A DNA stretch of 64,000 bases from positions 124,001 through 188,000 of the IMG/VR virus record IMGVR_UViG_3300041411_000129. One strand, written 5' to 3'. Within the stretch, counting starts at the first letter, position 1; every line of letters begins with the position of its first letter. The notes under the pieces are model-generated. The model worked only from the letters and a program-made list of their open reading frames with translations, did no database searches and was not told where the DNA came from. Source of the stretch: a virus. This document shows positions 2,523 to 35,078 of this stretch, in pieces. The position numbers were made by a program, and so were the translations under genes.

Positions 2523-3059
2523 ATGTTTCTAGTTAAAGGGATACTCCCTACGGCGCGTGATAAGAACAGCGCATTCACGGAGATACTTCTCGAAGGTTCA
2601 AACTTCGATACGCGTGAGGATATCCTTCCAGAGCTCGGCATTGCCCTCAGTACAATTGATGCACCGATTACTTGGGAAGATGCCCACGGGTACGTAAGTG
2701 TCTTACGTGGGTACGGTAAAGAACTCATCGTGTACTACGTCACCTTTAAGTTCGATACCCATGAATTCGGTGCAGAAGAGTTTGCGTTACTCGATGGACA
2801 TCGGGTAGCCGAAAGGATTGGAATGATAGTTGCAGGGCAGGTAGAGGACGACGACCGGCCAGCAGCTATTTACTTCATGGAGGGGGTGATTCAAGAACTA
2901 AACTTTAAGCCGCATATTGAAGGGGTATGGCGTGACCGATGCTTCGGTGCAGCTTTCTTCATACCCGGTGCAAGACGTGGAAGACCTTTGAAACAACCAC
3001 CTAATGATCCAGGAGCTGAACATGTCGAAACACGTAGGGGAATACACGACCCGCTGTGA
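2523..3059 (+). CDS. Hypothetical protein, 178 aa
   Basis: Not recognised. ATG at 2523 follows CAGGAG. It is an acidic alpha/beta-looking protein with hydrophobic strands near 68-76 and 100-110 and a proline/glycine/arginine-rich end. The last 38 nt overlap the start of the next gene, so the terminal residues may be a late extension past the conserved fold. First gene of a short operon ending at the terminator near 3255. Confidence 0.7.
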   Translation: MFLVKGILPTARDKNSAFTEILLEGSNFDTREDILPELGIALSTIDAPITWEDAHGYVSVLRGYGKELIVYYVTFKFDTHEFGAEEFALLDGHRVAERIGMIVAGQVEDDDRPAAIYFMEGVIQELNFKPHIEGVWRDRCFGAAFFIPGARRGRPLKQPPNDPGAEHVETRRGIHDPL

Positions 3060-3240
3060 AATCGCTTTAGCTATCCTTAGCATGGAAGAGGATAACGCTC
3101 TAACCCATGAGCAAGGGGATGTCCTCGTTGTAGCTACAATGGAAGCCCCAGATGACGCCGTGCTGAATATCTCGTTAGCCGATACAGGTTACCTAGTCAC
3201 ATTCAAGTCCGGTAAGACAACAATAACCGTAGAGCCGTAA
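3022..3240 (+). CDS. Small hypothetical protein, 72 aa
   Basis: Not recognised. I chose ATG 3022 because AGGAG stands eight bases upstream; the in-frame ATG at 3004 lacks such a site. The protein is small and acidic, with beta-strand-like alternation in the second half (LSLADTGYLVTFKSG). It overlaps the upstream gene by 38 nt and is followed closely by a UUCG terminator. Confidence 0.65.
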   Translation: MSKHVGEYTTRCEIALAILSMEEDNALTHEQGDVLVVATMEAPDDAVLNISLADTGYLVTFKSGKTTITVEP

Positions 3241-3254
3241 GCAGCATAAACACG

Positions 3255-3270
3255 GGGAGCTTCGGCTCCC
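3255..3270 (+). terminator. UUCG hairpin terminator
   Basis: GGGAGC-TTCG-GCTCCC followed within 12 nt by CTTC and a T8 run. Confidence 0.85.
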
Positions 3271-3331
3271 TGCTGTCCTACTTCTTTTTTTTGTCCAAAT
3301 AGGATGTCCGATTCTATTAGGCAGATCCGCT

Positions 3332-13084: not shown

Positions 13085-15265
13085 ATGAATCCATTTGATC
13101 CAACCGATCATTTACCTCAAGAGCGCTACACCATTCCACCGGAGATGGTTCCGATCAGTGGTTTAAACTCTCAGTTCAAATGTGTCTCTGGTGCCCGTCA
13201 AGCAATGTTCACCGGTAACCTGTCCCAAGTATTGATCGTGGATGGACGTACCCGTAAACGCCAGCAGACTGGGTTGGAACGCGAGATTGCCAAAGCTACA
13301 TTTAACCATCAGTTCCCTCGTGAAGCTGTGGTATTGGCGATCATCCCACGATTTACATCCCGTAACTTCGGCGATAAATTCCAGATCAACCCGTTCGATC
13401 TGGTGATCTACGAGGATTGGGAAACGAAAGAGCTGGACGTGGTCGAGTTGAGCAAGTTTCACGTAATGCACCAGCATTACGGATTCGAGTTCGAATACGA
13501 TCAGGACGTCTACGACGCCATCGTTAAAGGTAAACGTTTCAAAGCAGGTACAGTCATTGCTCGTTCTCCGGCAGTTACGGATGACGGCGACTACATGTAC
13601 GGCCTGGAAACCAACGTCTGCATGATCTCTGATCCGGCAGGTACTGAAGACGGTGTAAAGATCAGTCAGAGTTATGCCAAGCGTATTCGCTCGACAGGCT
13701 TTGAAAGTCGGATTGCTCGCTTCGGCGGTAGCCATTACCCAATTAACTGGAACGGTAACCTGGAGGAGTACAAACCTATTCCAGACATCGGTGATTTCAT
13801 CCAGTCAAACGGTCTGATCTGCGCCTCACGGCCTTTCGATCCAAAGTACGATCCAGTCTACATGACTCGGACCAAGCTACTTAAACCGCAGTATGGGTTG
13901 GACACACCGCTGTACGGCGTACCTAACGCTCAAGTCGTAGACATCCGAGTCCTTCATAACGATAGGCTGTCTTCCCCGAAACTACCAAAGGAAATGACCA
14001 AACAGTTCCTGAAGTACTACGAGGCCGACCAAGAGTTCTACACCAAGATCGTTAAGACGTGCCTCTGCCGGAAAGGTAACTTCCTGGCTGACGACGTTGC
14101 AATGTCTCCACGTCTGCGCATTCTCCTGTACGAAGCAATCGCACGTAGCGGTGAGCGTCTGCTGGAAGAAGGCATCTGGCCGAAGAGCAAAGCCGACCAA
14201 CTGCGTGTTCGCACGAAGTATCGCGGCGAGATCTTAGATGAGTTCCGTGTGGAAATCATCTACCAGTACAAGACGTCGGTTGGTGAAGGTCCTAAGGTTA
14301 CTGACCAATCTGGTGGTAAAGGTGTTACTTCGGCGGTTGCTCCAGACGAAGACATGCCTACAGACGAGAACGGTATTCGTGCCGACGTGGTGATCTTCTC
14401 GAACTCCACGGTAAACCGTCTGAACAACGGTCGTCAACATACCCAGGTAATCGGTGCTGCTGGCCGGGATATCATCAAACGTGTTCGTAAGTCTTACGGC
14501 TTGCCAGCCTTCGGTCCGATTGATCGGGAAGAAGTCAAACGTGCGGTGACGTCTCAGAACAACATGGCTGTAACCATGAAGAACTTTGCGTACATCATCG
14601 GCTTCTATAAGCTAGTGGCGCCTGCAATGTACGAACGTCTGACGCGTAACGATGTCATTCCGCAAGGGATTCACTTGCAGCATGTAATCGAATGCATCAT
14701 GGACGGCGAAGATCCTCACGGTCTGTTCCTGCAACTCGCATCCTCTGACGAAGTCTACATGGACAAAGTCATCAAGGAGATCGAATCAGGTCCGTACATG
14801 CCAGATCTGACGCCAGTGACCTATCGGAACCTGGCTGGCGATATGGTAACCACCAAGACCAGCATCCTGATCGGTCCTGACTACTACCTGCCTTTGGAGA
14901 AGACGGCTACCGACGGTTCCGGTGTATCGTCCTCCAAGACAAACCACTTCGGTGTTACTGCCCGTCTGACGAATGCTGACAAGTATGCCAGCCCTGGCCG
15001 TGAAACCGTAACCAAATCTACCGGTGAGTCCGAAGCGCGTAACCACGCTCACGCATATGGTGCTGAGCCCCTTGCTCACATCATGGACTTGAACTACAAC
15101 CCGGTGGTCCACAAAGAAGCCTGCATGACGATCCTCACCCACGAGACACCGACCAACATCGAATGTCTTGTTGACCGTGAGAAGTTTAAGCTTGGTGGAC
15201 ATCGTCCGCTGGCTTACGTTCGCCACATGATGGCCGTATCTGGTAAGAATATCTCCAGGGAGTAA
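13085..15265 (+). CDS. RNA polymerase beta C-terminal subunit (nvRNAP, phiKZ gp71-73-like)
   Basis: The 726-residue protein is the C-terminal half of a split beta subunit. DGVKISQS (about 189-196) corresponds to the beta 'edaI-is' region; TDQSGGKGVTS (about 406-416) to the GDK..GRHGnKG active-site lysine region; and ADVVIFSNSTVNRLNNGRQ (about 435-455) to the PvDiilNPlgVPSRMnvGQ region. ATG 13085 follows AAGGAG. It lies 34 bp before beta'C, the same adjacent order as phiKZ gp71-73/gp74, which supports nvRNAP identity. Beta N, phiKZ gp123 in my memory, is not in this window. Confidence 0.88.
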   Translation: MNPFDPTDHLPQERYTIPPEMVPISGLNSQFKCVSGARQAMFTGNLSQVLIVDGRTRKRQQTGLEREIAKATFNHQFPREAVVLAIIPRFTSRNFGDKFQINPFDLVIYEDWETKELDVVELSKFHVMHQHYGFEFEYDQDVYDAIVKGKRFKAGTVIARSPAVTDDGDYMYGLETNVCMISDPAGTEDGVKISQSYAKRIRSTGFESRIARFGGSHYPINWNGNLEEYKPIPDIGDFIQSNGLICASRPFDPKYDPVYMTRTKLLKPQYGLDTPLYGVPNAQVVDIRVLHNDRLSSPKLPKEMTKQFLKYYEADQEFYTKIVKTCLCRKGNFLADDVAMSPRLRILLYEAIARSGERLLEEGIWPKSKADQLRVRTKYRGEILDEFRVEIIYQYKTSVGEGPKVTDQSGGKGVTSAVAPDEDMPTDENGIRADVVIFSNSTVNRLNNGRQHTQVIGAAGRDIIKRVRKSYGLPAFGPIDREEVKRAVTSQNNMAVTMKNFAYIIGFYKLVAPAMYERLTRNDVIPQGIHLQHVIECIMDGEDPHGLFLQLASSDEVYMDKVIKEIESGPYMPDLTPVTYRNLAGDMVTTKTSILIGPDYYLPLEKTATDGSGVSSSKTNHFGVTARLTNADKYASPGRETVTKSTGESEARNHAHAYGAEPLAHIMDLNYNPVVHKEACMTILTHETPTNIECLVDREKFKLGGHRPLAYVRHMMAVSGKNISRE

Positions 15266-15272
15266 TCCCTGG
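15255..15272 (+). other. Hairpin spanning the beta C stop codon
   Basis: CCAGGGA-GTAA-TCCCTGG is a perfect 7-bp stem whose loop contains the TAA stop. No T-tract follows, so it may affect translational coupling to beta'C or RNA stability. Confidence 0.5.
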
Positions 15273-15299
15273 CGGTACAACGTAGGAGCGTGTTAATTA

Positions 15300-17279
15300 A
15301 TGGCAAGACATCGTCGGTTCAGAGCCCGTGACCTGTTCGATACGATGGTACATCTTTGGCCTTGCGCTGAGTACGAGGAATTCATCCTCGAGTTCGACGA
15401 CGGCGACACGATGACCACCACAACAATCAATACCCAGATCTCCCGCAAGCTCTGGTTGCCACACGAGGTATACGACAAACTCGGTATCTTCAAGCGCCAC
15501 CACATCGGTAATGGTTCGCTGTCCAATGAACGCATCCATGAAGTACAGGGTGCGATCACTGAAGACATGTACAACACGTACGGTGAGTTGGGCTTTAACC
15601 GTGAAGAGTTGTGGCGACACAACTATTACGGCACCAACCGTCTGTACAACGAATCCATCGTCGAATATGCGGCGTATGTTCGCGGCAGTAACTCATTTGA
15701 CTTCAGTCATCTGTACGAGTATCCGCCAATCGCTAAGATCCGTACCGAATGCCAGCCTAACAAGCTGTCTATCGAGAAGGCTTACGATGCGGCGAAGTTG
15801 GTTCTGGAACGTGATCCTGCGATTGCTCGTAACGTGATCATCTCCGACCTTCGGGCTGGGCTGCTGAAGATGGAGCAGTTGCTTCAGATCCTCATCGTGC
15901 GGGGCTATAATACCGACATCGATGGGCACGTATACAGCAAACCTATCATGGGCAACTACTTCGCAGGTATTCATGATCCTGCTGAAGCCATGATGGAATC
16001 CACATTGGCCGCTAAGGCTATCATCTTTACCGGAGCGCCGCTCGAACAAACCGAGTATGCAAACCGGAAGATGCAGTTCACTACCCAGCAGGTTGACTTG
16101 CTGGTAATGGCTGACTGTGGATCGACTGAGTACGGAGAGATTGAGATCACCAAGTTCAGGTTCAAAGCCATGGACGGTCTCAACTATCTCGATCCTGATA
16201 CCAACCGGTTGAAACCATTGCGGATGACTGACACTCACCTGATTGGTGAGACACGCAAGTTCCGTCTGGCATTCAACTGTAAGTACCGGCATCACAACAA
16301 CGTCTGCAAAATGTGCTACGGCTTGCTGGCGTATAACGTGCCGTTCGGTGCGAACATCGGTCATATCGCATCTACAATGACCCAATCGGAAGTATCTCAG
16401 GCAGTGTTGAAGGTTAAGCACTCTGAGGCGTCTGCTTCTTCTGATCCGATCATCATTCAAGATGAAGAACGGCCGTACATCCTCCCAGCATCTGAAGGTC
16501 ACCAGATTCGTCTGAACCCAAGACTGGGCGTTAAGGGTATTCCGCTGATGCTTCGCGGTGGTTACTCTCAGGGTGTTCACAACGCATCGAAGCTTCCTGT
16601 ACTGAAACGTACCGATCTGCGCGCTGGCGTTAACATCGCCAAGTTCAGTCAGTTCCGTGAAGTCAGCTTTGAGCTGCCTAGCGAGAACAAGCAGTCGAAC
16701 CGGGTACACGTCACGGTATCCCGTGGCGCTCGCATGTCGAACCTGACTCGTGAATTCCTGGACTACTTCCTGAAGAAAGGCTTCCGAATCGATGATGATG
16801 GTTATTATCGGATTGATCTGAAGGATTGGAACTTCGACCTGCCAGCCTTTGAAATGCCAAACCGCCACGGTAGCATGAAGGACCACGCAGCAGTAGTGGA
16901 AGTAATGATCCGCTCTACTCGTGACTCCAACCAGCGCCACTTGGGTCGGTTGAAGCAATTGAAGGACTATGCAAACCCAACTGAAGCAATGTTGGATACG
17001 CATGAACTGATCGCACTGAAGGTTCCTGTTCACTTCACCCATGTCGCTATTGTGTTGCTGTCTATGATGGTATCCAGTACGAAGTCCGGTGATTACAGGA
17101 TTCCACCTCTTGGCGAACCTACTCGGTTTGCTAAATACGATCACGTAATCAGTGGTCGCTCGATGGGCGCGTTCTTCGCCTATCAGGGTGGTCGTAACCT
17201 GCTCGATACACTTGAGCAGTACATGATCACCGAACGGGAACAACATCTGCTCGATCCATTGCTGATGCCAGGCTGGTAA
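15300..17279 (+). CDS. RNA polymerase beta' C-terminal subunit (nvRNAP, phiKZ gp74-like)
   Basis: The 659-residue product matches the C-terminal half of beta'. C336-x2-C339-Y-G followed by GANIGHIASTMTQSEVSQAVL corresponds to the CxxCYG ... GeavGiiAAQSIGEPGTQLTM stretch of bacterial beta', which includes the bridge-helix-distal region. GAPLEQTEYANRKMQFT and DCGSTEYG mirror the TA.SGYLTRRLVD/DCGT segment. It completes the beta' subunit with 343-1833. TAGGAG precedes ATG 15300. The SIGEPG consensus is highly divergent (STMTQSE), as expected in jumbo-phage enzymes. Confidence 0.88.
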   Translation: MARHRRFRARDLFDTMVHLWPCAEYEEFILEFDDGDTMTTTTINTQISRKLWLPHEVYDKLGIFKRHHIGNGSLSNERIHEVQGAITEDMYNTYGELGFNREELWRHNYYGTNRLYNESIVEYAAYVRGSNSFDFSHLYEYPPIAKIRTECQPNKLSIEKAYDAAKLVLERDPAIARNVIISDLRAGLLKMEQLLQILIVRGYNTDIDGHVYSKPIMGNYFAGIHDPAEAMMESTLAAKAIIFTGAPLEQTEYANRKMQFTTQQVDLLVMADCGSTEYGEIEITKFRFKAMDGLNYLDPDTNRLKPLRMTDTHLIGETRKFRLAFNCKYRHHNNVCKMCYGLLAYNVPFGANIGHIASTMTQSEVSQAVLKVKHSEASASSDPIIIQDEERPYILPASEGHQIRLNPRLGVKGIPLMLRGGYSQGVHNASKLPVLKRTDLRAGVNIAKFSQFREVSFELPSENKQSNRVHVTVSRGARMSNLTREFLDYFLKKGFRIDDDGYYRIDLKDWNFDLPAFEMPNRHGSMKDHAAVVEVMIRSTRDSNQRHLGRLKQLKDYANPTEAMLDTHELIALKVPVHFTHVAIVLLSMMVSSTKSGDYRIPPLGEPTRFAKYDHVISGRSMGAFFAYQGGRNLLDTLEQYMITEREQHLLDPLLMPGW

Positions 17280-21922: not shown

Positions 21923-23209
21923 TTAGTTCCTAAGGAATGTCTCTAAGAAGAGAGGAGTTGTTTTGAGTTCTTTAGCGTGAGCGGAACCCATCATTACGGC
22001 CATCATCGTGGAAGGGATCTCACCTACCATCGAACCGATGGAATCAGGATAAGCCGACAGCTTGTCACCGAAACACACCTCACAGCAGTCTGTGCGTGGA
22101 GTGATACAGAACGCCGGGCTGAACATAGGGTACATCTTACCCAAGTACTGACCGATGTTTTCGGCAGACAACTTAACCGACTCTTTACCGTCAACGATGG
22201 TGCGGCCAATGAGGTCTTCACTGACTTCGATATCGAGCTGATCGGTAGTACCGCAGAAGCCCTTAACTACACGAGCGTTCTGGAAGATACGACCCATCAA
22301 GTCCACGTCCTCACCAGCGAGTGCGGTCATCGCACCACGGAAGTAAGAACCAGCACGTAGCGAGTTCACCATGTGGGGGAACTTGGTTACGTCCAGACCT
22401 TCTTGAAGAGAAGTAGTAACGAGCGTTGCACGACCACCTTCTTCAAATCCAGCTTCAGGTCCGTGGATCTGGAACATTCGTTTCAAAGCAGTGTTCAAGG
22501 ATTTACGTTTGTACAGGAAGCCTTCAGACGGATCACCCTTGAGGTTATCCGAATAGTCCTTGACCAGAGCATCCTGAATACGCGCTTGGATAACCGGGTC
22601 ATCCAATTGATCCTTATACAGCTCCAGCATTTCCTTCAGGATCTTATCCCGATTAGGAGACGGCTGAAGAGCATGCTCAGTAACGGATGGAACGAACATC
22701 TCGTAACCGGCTATGTCAGACACAGCCTTGCCGAAGCGTAGGTAATGCCGAACGTAGATCACGCCTGGCTTTTCTGGTACTTCGTTATCCACCATCGCAC
22801 CGATGATGAAACGCTCCAGACCACCTAGGTCGATTGGACCTTCAGCGTATTTAAACAGATCACCCCCGGCGTAAACCAGAACACGACTGTTGAATAGCAA
22901 GTCACCCCAAGTACCGTCAGGGAGATCCTTATCCAGATTCTCCACGTCACCAGCCTTGATAGGACCGCAGGAGTCGTGATAGATGTACGGGATCTCGTAA
23001 GGCTTAGCGTCCTGTAGGACCTGCCAGCTCCACTCACCCTTATCGTCCGGTACGTATACCTGAACGTTTTCCTTCGTGTGCTTCAAGCCCCACTTGAGAT
23101 CACCGTTCTTAACGTCGTCGATAACGACGGAGAAGGCACGCAAGATCCACGCTCGATTATAATGGACCTTTGCCTTCATCGATTGGATAAAGAAATCATA
23201 CTTCCGCAT
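21923..23209 (-). CDS. RNA polymerase beta' C-terminal subunit, second copy (virion RNAP candidate, phiKZ gp80-like)
   Basis: The 428-residue product is another split beta' C-terminal half, clearly distinct from 15300-17279. FPHMVNSLRAGSYFRGAMTALAG...DLMGRIFQNARVV and the following FCGTTDQL (about 285-330) correspond to the TAnSGYLTRRLVDVAqDvvv ... DCGT region; CCEVCFGDKLS (about 383-393) to CxxCYG; and IGSMVGEIPSTMMAVMMGS to the GIIAAQSIGEPGTQLTM region. Because the other copy sits beside beta C, this one is best assigned to the enzyme packaged in the virion, which transcribes early genes. It overlaps the upstream 307-aa gene by 14 bp, so the two are co-translated. Confidence 0.82.
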   Translation of the reverse strand: MRKYDFFIQSMKAKVHYNRAWILRAFSVVIDDVKNGDLKWGLKHTKENVQVYVPDDKGEWSWQVLQDAKPYEIPYIYHDSCGPIKAGDVENLDKDLPDGTWGDLLFNSRVLVYAGGDLFKYAEGPIDLGGLERFIIGAMVDNEVPEKPGVIYVRHYLRFGKAVSDIAGYEMFVPSVTEHALQPSPNRDKILKEMLELYKDQLDDPVIQARIQDALVKDYSDNLKGDPSEGFLYKRKSLNTALKRMFQIHGPEAGFEEGGRATLVTTSLQEGLDVTKFPHMVNSLRAGSYFRGAMTALAGEDVDLMGRIFQNARVVKGFCGTTDQLDIEVSEDLIGRTIVDGKESVKLSAENIGQYLGKMYPMFSPAFCITPRTDCCEVCFGDKLSAYPDSIGSMVGEIPSTMMAVMMGSAHAKELKTTPLFLETFLRN

Positions 23210-24180: not shown

Positions 24181-24660
24181 ATGCGTAATAATAATTCCGA
24201 GCGATTCGTTGCTCACGGAAACTCGATCGAGGCTACTAATGCCGAAGTTGAGAAAGAAGTTCAGGGTTATCAAGACACTCTGGCCGTTAGTCTGAACGCT
24301 GCCATCCAGCCAGTCAAAGACCTCGCAGAGTCCATCAACGTATTGCATGCCGAAGGTCGTCAAGAGGACGTGCCTAAATTGACCGGCTTGGTGAAGATGC
24401 TCGCTCGCGACGCTGACGTGCTGCTGAAGGAAAAGAAAGAGGCTGATCAAGAACTGGAGAAACTCCGGGCTAATCCTCCGACCAAGAAGCGCCATCTGTC
24501 CAACCACCACGCCGGCCTGATGGCGGTGGGTGCTAAATACCTCGGTCTGTCCCAGCGCGCGACGAACACCGTAGGTAACATCCTCGGCGATTACATGGAC
24601 TTGATCGATCCGATCAAATCTAAACCTGCAACCGCAGAACAAAGTGAGGCTGTATCGTGA
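24181..24660 (+). CDS. Coiled-coil hypothetical protein, 159 aa
   Basis: Not recognised. ATG 24181 follows GAGAGG. Residues 15-100 show heptad-like Leu/Val spacing with many Glu/Lys, consistent with a coiled coil, and a His-rich KKRHLSNHHAG patch follows. The stop overlaps the GTG start of the next gene (GTGA), so it is translationally coupled to that virion-type protein. Confidence 0.7.
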   Translation: MRNNNSERFVAHGNSIEATNAEVEKEVQGYQDTLAVSLNAAIQPVKDLAESINVLHAEGRQEDVPKLTGLVKMLARDADVLLKEKKEADQELEKLRANPPTKKRHLSNHHAGLMAVGAKYLGLSQRATNTVGNILGDYMDLIDPIKSKPATAEQSEAVS

Positions 24661-26522
24661 GTGACGAACAGATCGTAGATCAACCTGAAGAAGAACGGCC
24701 GATCGTGCTGGAAGACCAGATCACCAAGCCGGCTGAGTTCAATCCTACTCCTGCCGATGAACCGGTCGATCTTACTCAAGCTGAGTGGGCGTCTATCGAA
24801 GAACTGCCTTCGGGCTTTGCTCACGAACCAGCTCCTGAGCATCCAGCTCAAGAAACCGGCGCTCTCGGCGATCTGTTGGCTGGCATTGCCGCCGATACAG
24901 CTGTACCGGTCAGTGAACAGATCGTGGATCTCTCCGTACCTGTTCCTGAAGCTGAAGCTGCGCCACTGCGCGAAATGGTTGGTGACTTCACGCCGAACAT
25001 GAACGTCAACGATGATCAGGGTATCCTGACCGTCCTGACTGATGTACAACTGGCCAAGTTCTCCCGCGACAACCCTTCCGTGCTGCTGTCCAACTTCTCG
25101 GCCGACGAACTGGACGTCATGTACGACCAGATCGAACGTCAAGTGGCGAACGCTCAGGAAGCTCGTGAAGAGCTCGTGAAGAATGGTGGTGGCGCTGGTC
25201 TTTACGCTGGTCGTACTGACGATGGTGAAGTGATCTACATCACCGCCAACGAAGGTAAGGCGATGGGTGCGATTGAAGACTATCGCAAGACCACCGCTCC
25301 ATTCCGTAACAACGCTGATCTCTTCGGCGATGATGACAGTGAGTGGACCAACCTTCCTAAGGTCGGTGATATTCCGATTGCTCCTGGTCGTCTGGATCAC
25401 GAGAAGTCCAAAGACCCGGTCATGCGTATCCGCGGTCGTCTGGGTATGGCTGTTGAATACACCAACCCGTTCTGGGCGTCTGGCCTGCACATGGTTATCG
25501 AAGGCGCTGGTGCGCTGGAAGAACTCTCTCTGGATCAGAAGATCCTGACTGAGAAAGCCGAAATGGGTCGTGACAGCAGCGGTTACGTTTATAGCGCTTC
25601 GGCACTGTACCTGAACCGTCCTGTGGTTGACTTCGCTCTGAGTCAAGTGCGTAGCACCACTATCGGTACTACTGATCCGCAAGTGCTGAAGAGCCTCTTG
25701 CTGATTACTGATATCGATCCGCTGGCGCTAGCAATGGCTTCTGCCAACATGCCTAACGGCTTCCTGCTGGAACGTCCTTGCTTGGAACAGGTCGGCGGTT
25801 GCGGTTTCGTTACCAAGCGTCAGGTTAACCTGCGCCGTATGCTGATGGTCCGTCGTTCGAAGCTGTCGGACGATCAGGCTCAGTTCATGAGCAAGCGTGC
25901 CGGTACTGTTGACATCAAGACTGTACTCGGCTACCAAGCCAAGATGCGTCCTGAGATCAGCCGTATCGTCAACCTGAAGGGCGGCTTGATTCTGCGCTTC
26001 AAGGTTCCTACCATCGCTGAATACGAGCGTATCGCTTCGGCATGGCTGGACTACATGGACCAACAGTCCCGTAAGGTTGCCGCCAGTAATGCTAACCAGC
26101 AAGAGCGTGAAGCGTTCCTGCTGAAGGCATCCCGCGTCTCCGTTCTGATGGCCTACGGTCACTGGATCGAAGCTGTGCTGGAAACCGATCCTGACGATCT
26201 GGCTGCTGACCCTAAGGTCATGATCGAACGCACTGGTGAAGAAGGTAGTCCTGAGCAGTACCAGTCTGACGTTCAGATGCAGCGTCTGTTGGTATCTCTG
26301 GCTGTCGATCAGGAACTGAGCGATCAGATCATCGAAGAGCTGAGCGAGTTCATCAACCAGATGACCATGTCTACACCGGTTATCCCGAAGATGAAGTGCC
26401 CGAACTGCGGTAAACAGATGCAGGGCGACGATGCGTCGAAGCACCCACACCTTGTAAACCTGAACGCCGTTGAAGTTTTTTTTACCCTACTCCGCCTCAG
26501 AATGCAAAAGCTGTCAAGCTAA
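24657..26522 (+). CDS. Virion-type protein, N-terminal 621 aa (continues after an apparent -1 frameshift)
   Basis: The GTG start overlaps the previous stop. A Pro/Glu/Asp-rich leader (1-120) precedes a charge-balanced domain and a CPNCG knuckle near residue 583. At 26476-26483 the gene meets a run of eight T, reads GTT TTT TTT ACC, and stops 13 codons later with atypical LLRLRMQKLSS. The minus-one frame opens just at the T run and stays open to 27001 with normal phage codon use. The slippery heptamer T-TTT-TTT permits -1 slippage; one extra T in the true sequence would also join the frames. Protein family not recognised; position among head and tail genes suggests a structural role. Confidence 0.75.
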   Translation: MSDEQIVDQPEEERPIVLEDQITKPAEFNPTPADEPVDLTQAEWASIEELPSGFAHEPAPEHPAQETGALGDLLAGIAADTAVPVSEQIVDLSVPVPEAEAAPLREMVGDFTPNMNVNDDQGILTVLTDVQLAKFSRDNPSVLLSNFSADELDVMYDQIERQVANAQEAREELVKNGGGAGLYAGRTDDGEVIYITANEGKAMGAIEDYRKTTAPFRNNADLFGDDDSEWTNLPKVGDIPIAPGRLDHEKSKDPVMRIRGRLGMAVEYTNPFWASGLHMVIEGAGALEELSLDQKILTEKAEMGRDSSGYVYSASALYLNRPVVDFALSQVRSTTIGTTDPQVLKSLLLITDIDPLALAMASANMPNGFLLERPCLEQVGGCGFVTKRQVNLRRMLMVRRSKLSDDQAQFMSKRAGTVDIKTVLGYQAKMRPEISRIVNLKGGLILRFKVPTIAEYERIASAWLDYMDQQSRKVAASNANQQEREAFLLKASRVSVLMAYGHWIEAVLETDPDDLAADPKVMIERTGEEGSPEQYQSDVQMQRLLVSLAVDQELSDQIIEELSEFINQMTMSTPVIPKMKCPNCGKQMQGDDASKHPHLVNLNAVEVFFTLLRLRMQKLSS

Positions 26523-27001
26523 CTCCCAACGGCGAAGTGTATCACCATATCGGTCTCCATGATTTCGGTAAAGAGATTACTCCGTTCACGGAAGGTACTC
26601 CTCTGTATAACCTGATCATGGGTAAGACTGTGAAGGATGACTTCACTTCGCAGCTGATGTTCCTTGAAGCTTACGACGAAACCTTCGGTATCTTCGATCA
26701 CGCTACCTACGACCATAACGATCCAATGTCTATCATCGCGATGCATCCATCCGAGGATATGGTTACTGGGTCACGGTTGGTGTCGTATTCGAGGGAGCTG
26801 ATGGCTTGTCGTATTCCTGAGCTGACCAATAAGCCTATCGATGAGTTGATGCGATTACCCAAGTGGTATTTGGATGATCTGCTCAAAGATGGGCGTAAGG
26901 CGCGGCATCGGGAAGATGCTGAAGTGGAGAAGATGCAAAACGATCTTAAGGCTAGTGCAGAAGCTGCGGCTAATCGTACTCAAGGGAACGAGCAGCCGTA
27001 G
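26474..27001 (+). CDS. C-terminal part of the 24657 gene in the -1 frame
   Basis: This frame has a TGA at 26471-26473 and is then open to the TAA at 26999-27001. After the T run it reads FFYPTPPQNAKAVKLTPNG and continues as a plausible acidic globular domain, ending in a helical polar tail. GTG 26537 is the first possible start, but only weak GGCGAA precedes it, and the residues before it look coding. Joined to the upstream frame the protein is about 780 residues. A separate gene starting at 26537 cannot be excluded. Confidence 0.65.
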   Translation, partial: SFFYPTPPQNAKAVKLTPNGEVYHHIGLHDFGKEITPFTEGTPLYNLIMGKTVKDDFTSQLMFLEAYDETFGIFDHATYDHNDPMSIIAMHPSEDMVTGSRLVSYSRELMACRIPELTNKPIDELMRLPKWYLDDLLKDGRKARHREDAEVEKMQNDLKASAEAAANRTQGNEQP

Positions 27002-27004
27002 ACA

Positions 27005-27038
27005 GCATAAAGGGCGGGGTAATCCCCGCCCTTTATGC
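27005..27038. terminator. 15-bp terminator hairpin between convergent genes
   Basis: Perfect stem 27005-27019 with 27024-27038 around TAAT; the stem begins GCATAAAGGGCGGGG. Confidence 0.85.
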
Positions 27039-30273: not shown

Positions 30274-32094
30274 ATGAAGAAGTTTCTTACACCACAAGAG
30301 ATCGATGTACATCTCGCACACATTCCAAAAGATCAAATTGTATCGCGTGAATGTAAACATGCGACTTACGTTCGCCATCGTGGTGGCGAGCAGCAAGACT
30401 GCTTGGTGATCAAAGAGTGGGTCACCCTCGCTGATGGTTCACGCTTCCCACGTATCCGTACTGTGGAGAACTATAAGCGTCCGTATTGGGTAACGAAAGA
30501 ACCGTTCCGCACACACCCAGATAAGATTCAGTTCGAAGAGCTGAAACGTCTGGACGTGTTCCGTGTACCGCAGTGCAAACTGCGTCAGGATATCTGCTTC
30601 CGCATCCGTGGACTTCAGCCAAACAACCCAATGAAGGTCTTGGCACGCAGCCCTTATCTGTACGGCCTCGACACAGGCCCTGAAGTCTTCATGAAGCAAA
30701 GCTACGCTGACAAGTGGCCCAATGCATTCATGCCGAACCAAGTCTCTGTAATCGACGCCGAGACCGATGTAAACGGCATTCTTCACGATAAGCTTCAACT
30801 GCCGATTCTTTGGTCGTTGGTTAGCGATGATGAGATCGTCCTCTACGTGAACGATGCGTGGGCTGGCGATATCGACAACTATGCTGAGCAAGTTCACAAA
30901 GAATACCAGCAGGTGATCGGTCAATGGGCTGAGGCCATCCGTAAGAAGATGACCAACAAGAAGTCCGGTGAATGCCCAGAATGGGTAGACATGATCGAGA
31001 AGATCCCTGTTCGCGTTGTGCGTCTGAAGAATGACTTCGACATCACCAAGGCAATGGTTGATCGTCTGCATGAAACACAACCGGACCTCGTTACTGGCTG
31101 GAACGTATTCTTCGATGCTAAATGTATCGAGAACTCTGTTCTGAATGCTGGCTACGATTTGGCTGACATCATGTCCGATCCTCGTGTTCCTTACGAGTAT
31201 CGTGGTGCCCTGCTTCGAGAAGGTCAGGCTGTTAAACGTACTTCGTCTGGGCGTGAGATGCGTCTTGATCCGCAAGAACGTTGGAACGTAATTCTCAATA
31301 CGGCCTCATGGCGCATGCAGGACATGATGCAGCTGTATTGGCAGTTGCGTAAGGCCAAGGGTAAGGAATCTGGTGGTTACGGCTTAGACGCTGTTCTAGA
31401 CCGTCAGTTGTCTGTGGGTAAGCTCAAGTACGATACCGAAGATACTTCGGTTCCGCCTGGGACACTTCACTGGCACATGGACATGCAGCGGAACTACAAG
31501 GTTCGCTACGGCGTGTACAACATCATCGACTCCTTGGCAGTTTGGGCGCTCGACAAGAAGAACCAAGACTTGAGTTCTCAGATCTCATCTCTTGCAGGTC
31601 CACTGGATTACTCCAACTTCAACTCACAGCCGAAGATCAACGTCACTGACATGCTCTTCAGTACGATGAAGAAGCTGGGCAAAGTAATCTGCTCCACATC
31701 CGATCAAATGGCCGACGAGAACGATGCACTTCTCTCCGGTAAGGATGGGTGGATCGTAACCTTCCCAAGCCACATCGTTGCGGATACTGGACTGTTCTTA
31801 TTCGAGGACATGCCAGAGATCAGATCCATGATCCACATGTTCAACGCGGATGCTGACGTGGAAACGACGTATCCGATTTCTGAGATCATTCAGAACCTTT
31901 CCAGTGAGACGACAATTGCAGAACCTTGTCGTGTGATGGGTGTAGGGCGTGAAGCATTGCGTCTTGCAAGTATCAACCTTACTGGTGGTCGAGTGAACGC
32001 GGTCGAGATCGTTGAATCCATCTGCAAGATGCCAATGTTCGACGAGTGGCTGGATCAAGCACTCCTAGACGTCGAAGAGATCAAAGCAGCATAA
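30274..32094 (+). CDS. Family B DNA polymerase, exonuclease/N-terminal half (split)
   Basis: The 606-residue product has the three proofreading motifs of family B: Exo I DAETD (D161, E163), Exo II TGWNVFFD (274-281) and Exo III YNIIDS (415-420). After these an EDMPEIRSMIHMFNADADV segment may correspond to the motif A region (SLYPS-like), but no K..NSLYG motif B or DTDS motif C follows before the stop. The palm and thumb must therefore come from a second gene outside this window. ATG 30274 has GAGG upstream; GTG at 30235 would add 13 residues. It lies alone between minus-strand virion operons and ends in a 15-bp terminator. Confidence 0.85.
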   Translation: MKKFLTPQEIDVHLAHIPKDQIVSRECKHATYVRHRGGEQQDCLVIKEWVTLADGSRFPRIRTVENYKRPYWVTKEPFRTHPDKIQFEELKRLDVFRVPQCKLRQDICFRIRGLQPNNPMKVLARSPYLYGLDTGPEVFMKQSYADKWPNAFMPNQVSVIDAETDVNGILHDKLQLPILWSLVSDDEIVLYVNDAWAGDIDNYAEQVHKEYQQVIGQWAEAIRKKMTNKKSGECPEWVDMIEKIPVRVVRLKNDFDITKAMVDRLHETQPDLVTGWNVFFDAKCIENSVLNAGYDLADIMSDPRVPYEYRGALLREGQAVKRTSSGREMRLDPQERWNVILNTASWRMQDMMQLYWQLRKAKGKESGGYGLDAVLDRQLSVGKLKYDTEDTSVPPGTLHWHMDMQRNYKVRYGVYNIIDSLAVWALDKKNQDLSSQISSLAGPLDYSNFNSQPKINVTDMLFSTMKKLGKVICSTSDQMADENDALLSGKDGWIVTFPSHIVADTGLFLFEDMPEIRSMIHMFNADADVETTYPISEIIQNLSSETTIAEPCRVMGVGREALRLASINLTGGRVNAVEIVESICKMPMFDEWLDQALLDVEEIKAA

Positions 32095-32098
32095 GGAA

Positions 32099-32132
32099 CC
32101 AGCACACTACAGATCGCTCTGTAGTGTGCTGG
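32099..32132. terminator. 15-bp terminator hairpin between convergent genes
   Basis: Perfect stem CCAGCACACTACAGA (32099-32113) with 32118-32132 around TCGC, followed by GGTTTATG. Confidence 0.85.
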
Positions 32133-32135
32133 GGT

Positions 32136-35078
32136 TTATGCCTGCAATGGCTGGTGAAGCTTGAAGTTCACTTCGATAGCGTCAACAACCGAGTACGTGC
32201 CATCGGCCTGAGCTTCCAGTGCCTTAGCAATACACAGACGAGACGAAGCGTCCGACAAGGTGATCACGTCGTAGTCTTTATCAGCACCACCCAACCCAGT
32301 GAGACTAGCGCCGATAACGTCGTTAGCACCGAGGTTGTTGTAGATGTCTGTTTCGATCACGTTACGAGATACACGCTGGTTATCGAGGCCTGCCACCACA
32401 CGAGCAATCGTAGTGACTTCCATCGCATCCCGAAGGTCAGTGTTACCGTACACCTCTTTGCTGACCCAAAGGGTCACTGTCAGAGACTGAGACGTGTGCA
32501 GAGTAACCAACTCACTGTCTTGTACAGTTGCTTCCACGAACTTCAGAGTGTTGCGCGGTTGGAAGAACAAGTCAGTACGTTCGAACAGTTCTTGACGAAC
32601 TGGAGCAAGCACTTCGTTGATCCACTCGTTGAGGATCTGAGGTACTTCCTTCACGTAAGTCAGATCGCCGCCTTTAGTAGCGTAGCGATACACGCCATCG
32701 AACAAGCAGACATCCCACCAGTGAATGACGTTACGCTCCGATTCGTAAATCGGATTGCCATTCTCATCGAGGACTGCATCGTTGATGTAATGCAGGACTG
32801 TCTTGTCGCCATCGGCATTAAGAACGAAGTCGCCCTTCTTGTGCTTGATCTTGAGTTGCTTGACGCCATCAACCACTTCAAAGACCGGCTGCTTGTCAGC
32901 ATCGAACTCGTAGTAGTTCTTATCCCACGTCTGGTAAACAACCTCATCGTAGGTCAGAACTTTACGAAGGCCAGCTAGATCCCGGCAAAGAGCCCACAGA
33001 CCAGTCAGCTCGTCACCAAGTTTCAGGGTCAGCTCTTCGTGATAGATACCGGTCGAATCATCAGGCAGAAGGAAGTCACCCAACACCTGATCAACAGCAG
33101 TGGTCGCCGCACCTTCAACAGTGTAATCGGACACCGACCAGATCAACGAGAACTCGTTAGTCAGGTAAGTAGACAGATTGCGTGCTTCCGGCTCGTACAT
33201 GCTGAAGTTCGACAGGTTTAGCTCATGGTCACCGTTGATGTCCCAGTTACTGTTGAGACGGAACGTATAGATGCGCTCACCGTTCTTAGCGATCTGCACG
33301 CCGTTAACGTAAGCATAGTCACTCTCACCGACAGGTTTGAATGCAAGCTGTACGTGAACCTGATCATCGCGCAGAGCTTGCCATGCGTCGTTAGACGAGC
33401 TGCGTACGGTCAGTAGATAACCCGCATCATCGCGAACGATGGACATGGTGTTGCTCGAGCTCACAGTCAAGCCCAAGGTATCGTTACTGGCAATGAACGA
33501 CTTGATGTCGATCTCTGGAGCGTTCAAGTAGTACGGCCGTACTTCGAAGTTGAAGTTAGCTGTGTCGAGAACGTAGTGCAGCGGAGTCCAGAGGTACGTG
33601 CCATCGGAGACCTTGTTGATCAGCGGATCACCCTTCAACAGATCGATCGCCTTACGGTCAGCATCTTTAACGATCGTCAGCACGCCATCGATATACCGAT
33701 ACAGAGTCTTCGGAGTCACAGTGAAGCGTTGACCATTGTCGATGACTGTTTCGTATTGCAGCAGATCAGCGATAGCGAACTTGGCCGTGATAACAGCGGA
33801 GTCGATACCGGTAGTCGCTACACCCGCTTCGTTCACCGGCATAGCGCGAGTGGCAAGGAAGGTACGTTCGGTGACCACGTCGGTAGGCTTCATCGAGTCA
33901 AAACCCAATTCGTCCAGAGTGGTCTTCATCTGCAAGTCACTGACAGGGATGATCGCATCGCCAACGGCGTTGCTGAGAACACGCTTACGACGCTCTTCAA
34001 ACGTCGGAGCATTAGCACCGCCACTGATTAGATCGGTGGAAACAATGCTGATGGTGTTCATCGTCGACAGCGGAGCTTTGTAGATACCAGCGTCATCGTT
34101 GTCAAGGTCGCTGTAAGTCGCTACAAACGCTTCTGGCGGCAAGCCCGACAAAGACATCGTCATCTCGCCTTTCGTCGTGTATACGTCAACACGGATGTCT
34201 TTCGTGGTGAGGTTGGTGGCGAAGTAAACGTACGGCAGCTCGATCGTCAGTTCGTTGTTCACCAACTTGTACAGAAGCGTTGGGTCAGTCGGGTCGAACG
34301 ATTGAATGCTGTTGGTCGTCTTGATCTCATCCCACCCTTTGGTAGCAGTGTTACGAGAGAACGCCCGGACGTAGTAGAACTTGTCGGTCAGGGTCAGAAC
34401 CTTCTTCAAGGACTTAGCGCCAGACAGACTGTAGGTGTACGACGTCAGCAGCATCTGCTTGATAGGCACATCGACACGAACCATCTCAACAAAGCCACCG
34501 CTGTTTGGATCAACGAGCGTGTTGACGTTCTGAGTCTTGACCTTGTTACCAGAAAGCTTCTGGAGAGGCGATGGACGGCTACCGTCGTAAACCACGTCAA
34601 TACCACCGTTCTTCTTCACGATGAAGTTGATGGCGTATTGGAAGGTAAACGCAGTGTTGTTCACGACGATCCGGGTATGCTTCGGAATCGTCAGGCGCTT
34701 AGTGCCGGTGTTACCGACAGGTACAGCGCTTGCCACGATCTCATCGACCGAGAAGAACCAACTGAACACGCCTTCGGAAGGACTGTCGAACATCCCCTCG
34801 AAGTCTTTGTCGGATAGGTGGTAGAACAGAGTCTCATCATCCACAGCCTGAATCGGATACTGGCGTGTGTTGAGAATCTGGTCTTCCTGAATACCAGCCA
34901 GCGCCAACACCACTGACATTTCCATCAGGTGAGGAAGTGGAGCTGAAGGATTGGTTACAATCGTGCCACCGTCGAGCGCTTCTTCGGTCATCCCCATCAG
35001 CAGAGGAATGATTCGAGTGGGCTCGTACTGCAACTCCGCCATCTCGTTGAGAATGGTGTTGTGATCAATTGTAGTCAT
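32136..35078 (-). CDS. Baseplate wedge protein candidate (gp6/J-like), 980 aa
   Basis: The largest protein in the window is beta-rich. Near residues 350-390 it reads SGGANAPTFEERRKRVLS followed by DAIIPVSDLQ, which resembles the GG.d.Et.eelR.Ril..P motif of baseplate J and T4 gp6-family wedge proteins. The family builds the ring joining tail tube and sheath to the baseplate periphery. It pairs with the minus-strand gene at 35091-36161, 12 bp upstream. Length is larger than gp6 of T4 (660 aa), fitting jumbo myoviruses. The assignment rests on one motif region and context. Confidence 0.5.
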   Translation of the reverse strand: MTTIDHNTILNEMAELQYEPTRIIPLLMGMTEEALDGGTIVTNPSAPLPHLMEMSVVLALAGIQEDQILNTRQYPIQAVDDETLFYHLSDKDFEGMFDSPSEGVFSWFFSVDEIVASAVPVGNTGTKRLTIPKHTRIVVNNTAFTFQYAINFIVKKNGGIDVVYDGSRPSPLQKLSGNKVKTQNVNTLVDPNSGGFVEMVRVDVPIKQMLLTSYTYSLSGAKSLKKVLTLTDKFYYVRAFSRNTATKGWDEIKTTNSIQSFDPTDPTLLYKLVNNELTIELPYVYFATNLTTKDIRVDVYTTKGEMTMSLSGLPPEAFVATYSDLDNDDAGIYKAPLSTMNTISIVSTDLISGGANAPTFEERRKRVLSNAVGDAIIPVSDLQMKTTLDELGFDSMKPTDVVTERTFLATRAMPVNEAGVATTGIDSAVITAKFAIADLLQYETVIDNGQRFTVTPKTLYRYIDGVLTIVKDADRKAIDLLKGDPLINKVSDGTYLWTPLHYVLDTANFNFEVRPYYLNAPEIDIKSFIASNDTLGLTVSSSNTMSIVRDDAGYLLTVRSSSNDAWQALRDDQVHVQLAFKPVGESDYAYVNGVQIAKNGERIYTFRLNSNWDINGDHELNLSNFSMYEPEARNLSTYLTNEFSLIWSVSDYTVEGAATTAVDQVLGDFLLPDDSTGIYHEELTLKLGDELTGLWALCRDLAGLRKVLTYDEVVYQTWDKNYYEFDADKQPVFEVVDGVKQLKIKHKKGDFVLNADGDKTVLHYINDAVLDENGNPIYESERNVIHWWDVCLFDGVYRYATKGGDLTYVKEVPQILNEWINEVLAPVRQELFERTDLFFQPRNTLKFVEATVQDSELVTLHTSQSLTVTLWVSKEVYGNTDLRDAMEVTTIARVVAGLDNQRVSRNVIETDIYNNLGANDVIGASLTGLGGADKDYDVITLSDASSRLCIAKALEAQADGTYSVVDAIEVNFKLHQPLQA

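Follow-up and report, generated by a model that had tools for sequence, protein, structure and literature searches.

Does the run of eight thymines at positions 26476-26483 of this DNA interrupt a single gene, separate two genes, or make ribosomes change frame? The window, by which we mean the whole stretch of 64,000 nucleotides analysed, belongs to a virus record of 253,921 bases. An ORF encoding 621 aa (24657-26522, + strand) starts there with a GTG at 24657, overlapping the stop of a 159 aa gene (24181-24660, +) that belongs to the same transcription unit and occupies the position of phiKZ gp78 homologues. Across the T run this frame 0 reads GAA-GTT-TTT-TTT-ACC...AGC-TAA, with GTT-TTT-TTT at 26475-26483, and it stops at 26520-26522, the 13th codon past the Phe pair and 39 nt beyond the T8. 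The -1 frame has a TGA at 26471-26473 and is then open from 26474 to 27001 (175 codons), with the translation SFFYPTPPQNAK. An earlier note, made from the sequence alone, had described the T8, the frame-0 stop, the -1 TGA and the 175-codon -1 frame, and every coordinate in it is correct. The T8 includes the heptamer T_TTT_TTT (26477-26483, +). Counted from there, the -1 extension (26483-27001, +) runs for 172 codons past the slip to a TAG stop, and the two frames overlap at 26484-26522 (+), a segment made of 12 frame-0 sense codons with their stop, and of the first -1 codons.

We propose that the gene at 24657 would encode two proteins sharing a single start. Most ribosomes would read across the T run without leaving frame 0 and terminate after 12 further codons, yielding the 621 aa product, while a fraction would shift back by one base at TTT-TTT (26477-26483) and read on to 27001, yielding a fusion protein of some 780 aa whose C-terminal domain is helical. 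The whole reading, in which one gene makes a short and a long form of a tail assembly chaperone (TAC) by -1 slippage, is in our estimate the best explanation, with a probability of about 0.8. Taken alone, a programmed -1 ribosomal frameshift at the T run, real and conserved, is very probable; both the occurrence and the rate of slippage we infer from sequence.

The frame-0 protein belongs to the family of phiKZ gp77, PhiPA3 gp74, 201phi2-1 gp136 and EL ORF47 (phrog_4585), and the -1 ORF to that of PhiPA3 gp73 and phiKZ 76.4 (phrog_12109, which matches 49 of 49 -1 tails). A Pfam search with the frame-0 protein gave no match, and no function was matched to the -1 domain. No close DNA relative of the window was found in the phage collection. 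In the records of relatives, the two ORFs stand as separate, mostly hypothetical genes, so that the long product appears either as two unrelated genes or not annotated whatsoever; one frame-0 protein carries the label ‘putative baseplate hub assembly protein’, given for its similarity to T4 gp26. The phiKZ pair, gp77 and 76.4 (Chimalliviridae), is directly homologous, and the phiKZ-like relatives examined share its arrangement, but it is annotated as two separate hypothetical proteins, unlike the frameshift pair proposed here.

To follow the arrangement among phiKZ-like phages (Chimalliviridae) and environmental contigs, 97 records were assembled: 27 annotated phages, the window, and 69 IMG/VR loci. 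Aligned together, the full set of 28 proteins diverged too much to serve as scan query, and subsets were used instead. Dropping loci that shared 85% identity or more near the site left 63 distinct sites; the loci span at least 16 named Chimalliviridae genera. At all 63 sites, the same two ORFs meet in a -1 relation at the same Phe-Phe codons, and the -1 frame is open from the slip for 149 to 180 codons (median 166). The comparison with related phages that the earlier note had called for thus supports its proposal of T-TTT-TTT as a -1 frameshift site. At one locus (L091:2501-4078), two stop codons were seen inside the frame-0 stretch, reflecting either a broken gene or a joined match.

This conservation leaves next to no credence for a sequencing or assembly error, the other possibility raised in the earlier note, in which one T would have been lost from a gene consisting of a single long frame: homopolymer runs are error-prone and a T9 would join the frames, but the T run is 5, 6, 7, 8 or 9 long among the phages and the relation is always -1, at 63 distinct sites including many complete isolate genomes, and both the T8 and the frames recur unchanged in a near-identical relative found in another metagenome (IMGVR 3300006051).

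The slip codons themselves are conserved. The codon pair begins with TTT at 61 of the 63 sites and with CTT at the other two, as compared to 34% TTT among Phe codons elsewhere in the same genes. The full heptamer T_TTT_TTN is present at 53 sites; at the other 10, the run is a T5 or T6 preceded by G, A or C. At these 10 sites, tandem slippage is imperfect, with a non-T before TTT or with CTT as first codon. Where CTT comes first, the TTT that follows it would still be able to re-pair one base back. Seven loci (L097-L102 and L104) have the site CTT_TTT_A (T5) and the motif LFI replacing FF. Their -1 ORF is nevertheless open for about 180 codons, and therefore it may be enough for a single Phe tRNA to slip.

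Coding constraint in the overlap points in the same direction as the codons. Not one -1 stop occurs in 1044 overlap codons, as against an upstream -1 stop density of 7.5%; the corresponding log10 P of about -35 treats the sites as independent, which in fact they are not, so that such probabilities are rough and indicative only. Synonymous change falls from about 5 codons before the site and through the overlap. Synonymous identity, computed in five groups of relatives, is up near the site and still raised in most of the overlap. Among ten DT01-like loci, the top 7-codon window out of 347 begins 2 codons before the slip, with a synonymous identity of 0.95 versus 0.57. Downstream RNA structure was considered as a stimulator, and gave no consistent signal (mean z of -0.36 directly past the site).

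Could the two ORFs simply be separate genes with a short overlap, the second starting alone or by reinitiation? Public records annotate them so, and the window has a GTG at 26537 from which the earlier note had envisaged a distinct start. This GTG has no Shine-Dalgarno sequence, and the start position is not conserved among relatives. In 26 of 49 aligned tails, there is no ATG, GTG or TTG ahead of the conserved FG motif (tail residues 28-29); 12 of the 49 have no ATG ahead of the conserved Tyr64, and one lacks ATG altogether. Within the first 60 codons, 3 of 49 tails have a start codon accompanied by a Shine-Dalgarno core, versus 21 of 28 frame-0 starts. Two separate genes would also leave both the T run and the synonymous constraint unexplained, and we consider this arrangement highly improbable. 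As to the annotations, the second gene's starts differ widely, lying 8 to 85 codons past the site, or upstream of it in Erwinia phage Simmy50 (L016), where the annotated -1 ORF (2736-3284) begins with an ATG that precedes the slip site by 28 codons. The Simmy50 case, too, indicates that annotators lacked a consistent start to choose.

The frames could also be joined one step earlier, if RNA polymerase slipped on the T run and the phage's own enzyme made mixed mRNAs. The site is indeed a run of T, and these phages have genes for multisubunit RNA polymerases. Against this, the T5 runs followed by C or A in Noxifer, PA1C and the L097 group are short for transcript slippage, and what the constraint preserves is not a long homopolymer but the codon boundaries, with TTT as the first codon. 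We regard polymerase slippage as very doubtful, and as a shade more doubtful its extension, in which the multisubunit RNA polymerase of nucleus-forming phages would set the ratio of chaperone forms at transcription.

If a programmed ribosomal frameshift thus joins the two ORFs, what would the products do? The predicted model of the frame-0 protein has a pLDDT of 80. A Foldseek search with it returned its own family first, and then several T4-like baseplate hub assembly proteins (E 1.7e-5 to 4e-4, probability 1.00, TMt about 0.5-0.6), for instance ‘Baseplate hub assembly protein, bacteriophage T4-like’ (E 1.7e-5, probability 1.00, TMt 0.53); the comparison with solved structures gave no match. 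At the sequence level, profile PF12322 aligns to the window protein over profile positions 173-206 with 10.5 bits and E 0.057, below the 24.5-bit cut-off. The region concerned is KMKCPNCGK...VEVFFTLL; nowhere else in the genome record does PF12322 give an echo, and no second gp26/51-type gene was found in that record. Direct profile alignment with T4 gp26 and gp51 is weak and consists mostly of the cysteine knuckle.

This knuckle, a CPxC motif within KMKCPNCGK (26388-26412, +), lies some 25 residues upstream of the slip codons. Its C581 and C584, together with C375 and C382, are nearly invariant, and the four residues could bind zinc. The earlier note had pointed out that the third frame reads SECKSCQ after the knuckle, which is correct, and had suggested that it could complete a zinc ribbon, which is not supported, as frame 0 already contains each of the four nearly invariant cysteines. 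Within the window, the third frame stays open over no more than 32 codons (26464-26562), is not conserved, and is not needed for a zinc site.

T4 gp26 and gp51 both belong to PF12322. The end of gp26 is ...IKCPECGKTHAHVIRGLKEFFELL, and its FF aligns with the position of the slip codons, whereas gp51 has a C-terminal extension past the equivalent point. Genes 26 and 51 have reportedly been named, by Vladimirov et al. in 2022, as the TAC-N and TAC-NC of T4-like phages. The likeness to our locus lies in the predicted frame-0 fold, in a CPxC knuckle with, after it, a helix that ends in FF, and in a short form that ends just past FF next to a long form with a C-terminal extension. The frame-0 protein would then be a large and divergent relative of gp26 and gp51. 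Unlike in T4, where two paralogous genes are found, there is here one gene with a -1 slip, the frame-0 proteins are 496-720 aa long versus 208, and the Pfam cut-off is missed. A short and a long form sharing their N-terminal part are present here at the sequence level only.

The lambda proteins gpG and gpGT offer a second comparison; Xu, Hendrix and Duda are said to have described this frameshift as conserved among tail genes in 2004. As in lambda, a single gene would slip by -1 near its end, and a minor long form would carry an added domain. The slippery site is T-rich here, unlike that of lambda, and the gene is not adjacent to the tape measure gene.

Poly-T -1 sites have been described in TAC-N genes of myophages (PMC12846349). 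In the TAC locus of Vandenendeviridae and Andersonviridae, exemplified by phage Adele and likewise from myophages, the -1 site GTTTTT is invariant and the ORF downstream of it has been misannotated as a hypothetical gene of its own; these are other phage families than ours (PMC12846349). According to work as cited in PMC10885494, some T4-like phages have one short and one long gene replacing the frameshift. Because of the fold match, the gp26-like C-terminus, the gp51 extension and the reports in PMC10885494 and PMC12846349, we would assign the short product (24657-26522) as TAC-N, and the long one, in which 26483-27001 would supply TAC-C, as TAC-NC. Judged on the predicted model and on sequence, a chaperone function of the two products is likely.

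The explanation that survives best beside it is that the frameshift is real and the pair serves elsewhere, for instance as a baseplate or other assembly factor. The weak sequence similarity to gp26 and gp51 would agree with this, as would a protein far larger than known TAC-N proteins and a tape measure gene that is not adjacent. Indeed, the transcription unit ends in a hairpin followed by convergent genes, and there is no ORF above 980 aa in the window; the neighbourhood of TAC and tape measure genes is usual, not universal. Against such a role are the fold match to T4-like gp26-type proteins, the gp26-like C-terminal end, and a short and long architecture ending at the same FF, and we find it unlikely. 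In the record of 201phi2-1, gp138 and gp139 are marked as found by mass spectrometry and gp135-137 are not, a weak hint that fits a chaperone missing from the finished virion. The earlier note had spoken of a virion-type gene joined across the T run; we retain the frameshift gene, and prefer a tail assembly chaperone to a virion protein as the better reading.

The mechanism of -1 frameshifting is itself already known. We found no report of it for the phiKZ gp77 family in the literature searched, the jumbo-phage coverage of Vladimirov et al. 2022 lying outside that search, and within the same literature a frameshift across Chimalliviridae appears to be unreported. With a TAC pair at this locus, phiKZ-like jumbo phages, sampled here in at least 16 named genera, would gain a candidate tail assembly chaperone. 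Public annotation of relatives would be corrected, the downstream ‘hypothetical protein’ becoming the C-terminal domain of a frameshift fusion. The one-gene route by slippage and the two-gene route of T4 26/51, both leading to a short and a long chaperone, would be linked.

Directly 3' of the -1 stop, a near-perfect hairpin of 15 bp (27005-27038, +; -31 kcal/mol) is probably a bidirectional terminator between convergent genes, and the transcription unit would end with the -1 ORF, because this probable terminator directly follows its stop. The LucasX record has an annotated terminator at the equivalent place.

Two further regions of the window were noted. A 310 aa ORF (32046-32978, +) shares 49 nt with the DNA polymerase gene, to which it stands in the -1 frame; this ORF is probably spurious, as it has no PHROG match and is mostly antisense to a 980 aa gene (32136-35078). 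Several genes for RNA polymerase beta and beta' subunits are present at 13085-17279 (+) and 21923-23209 (-), split as in phiKZ-like phages.
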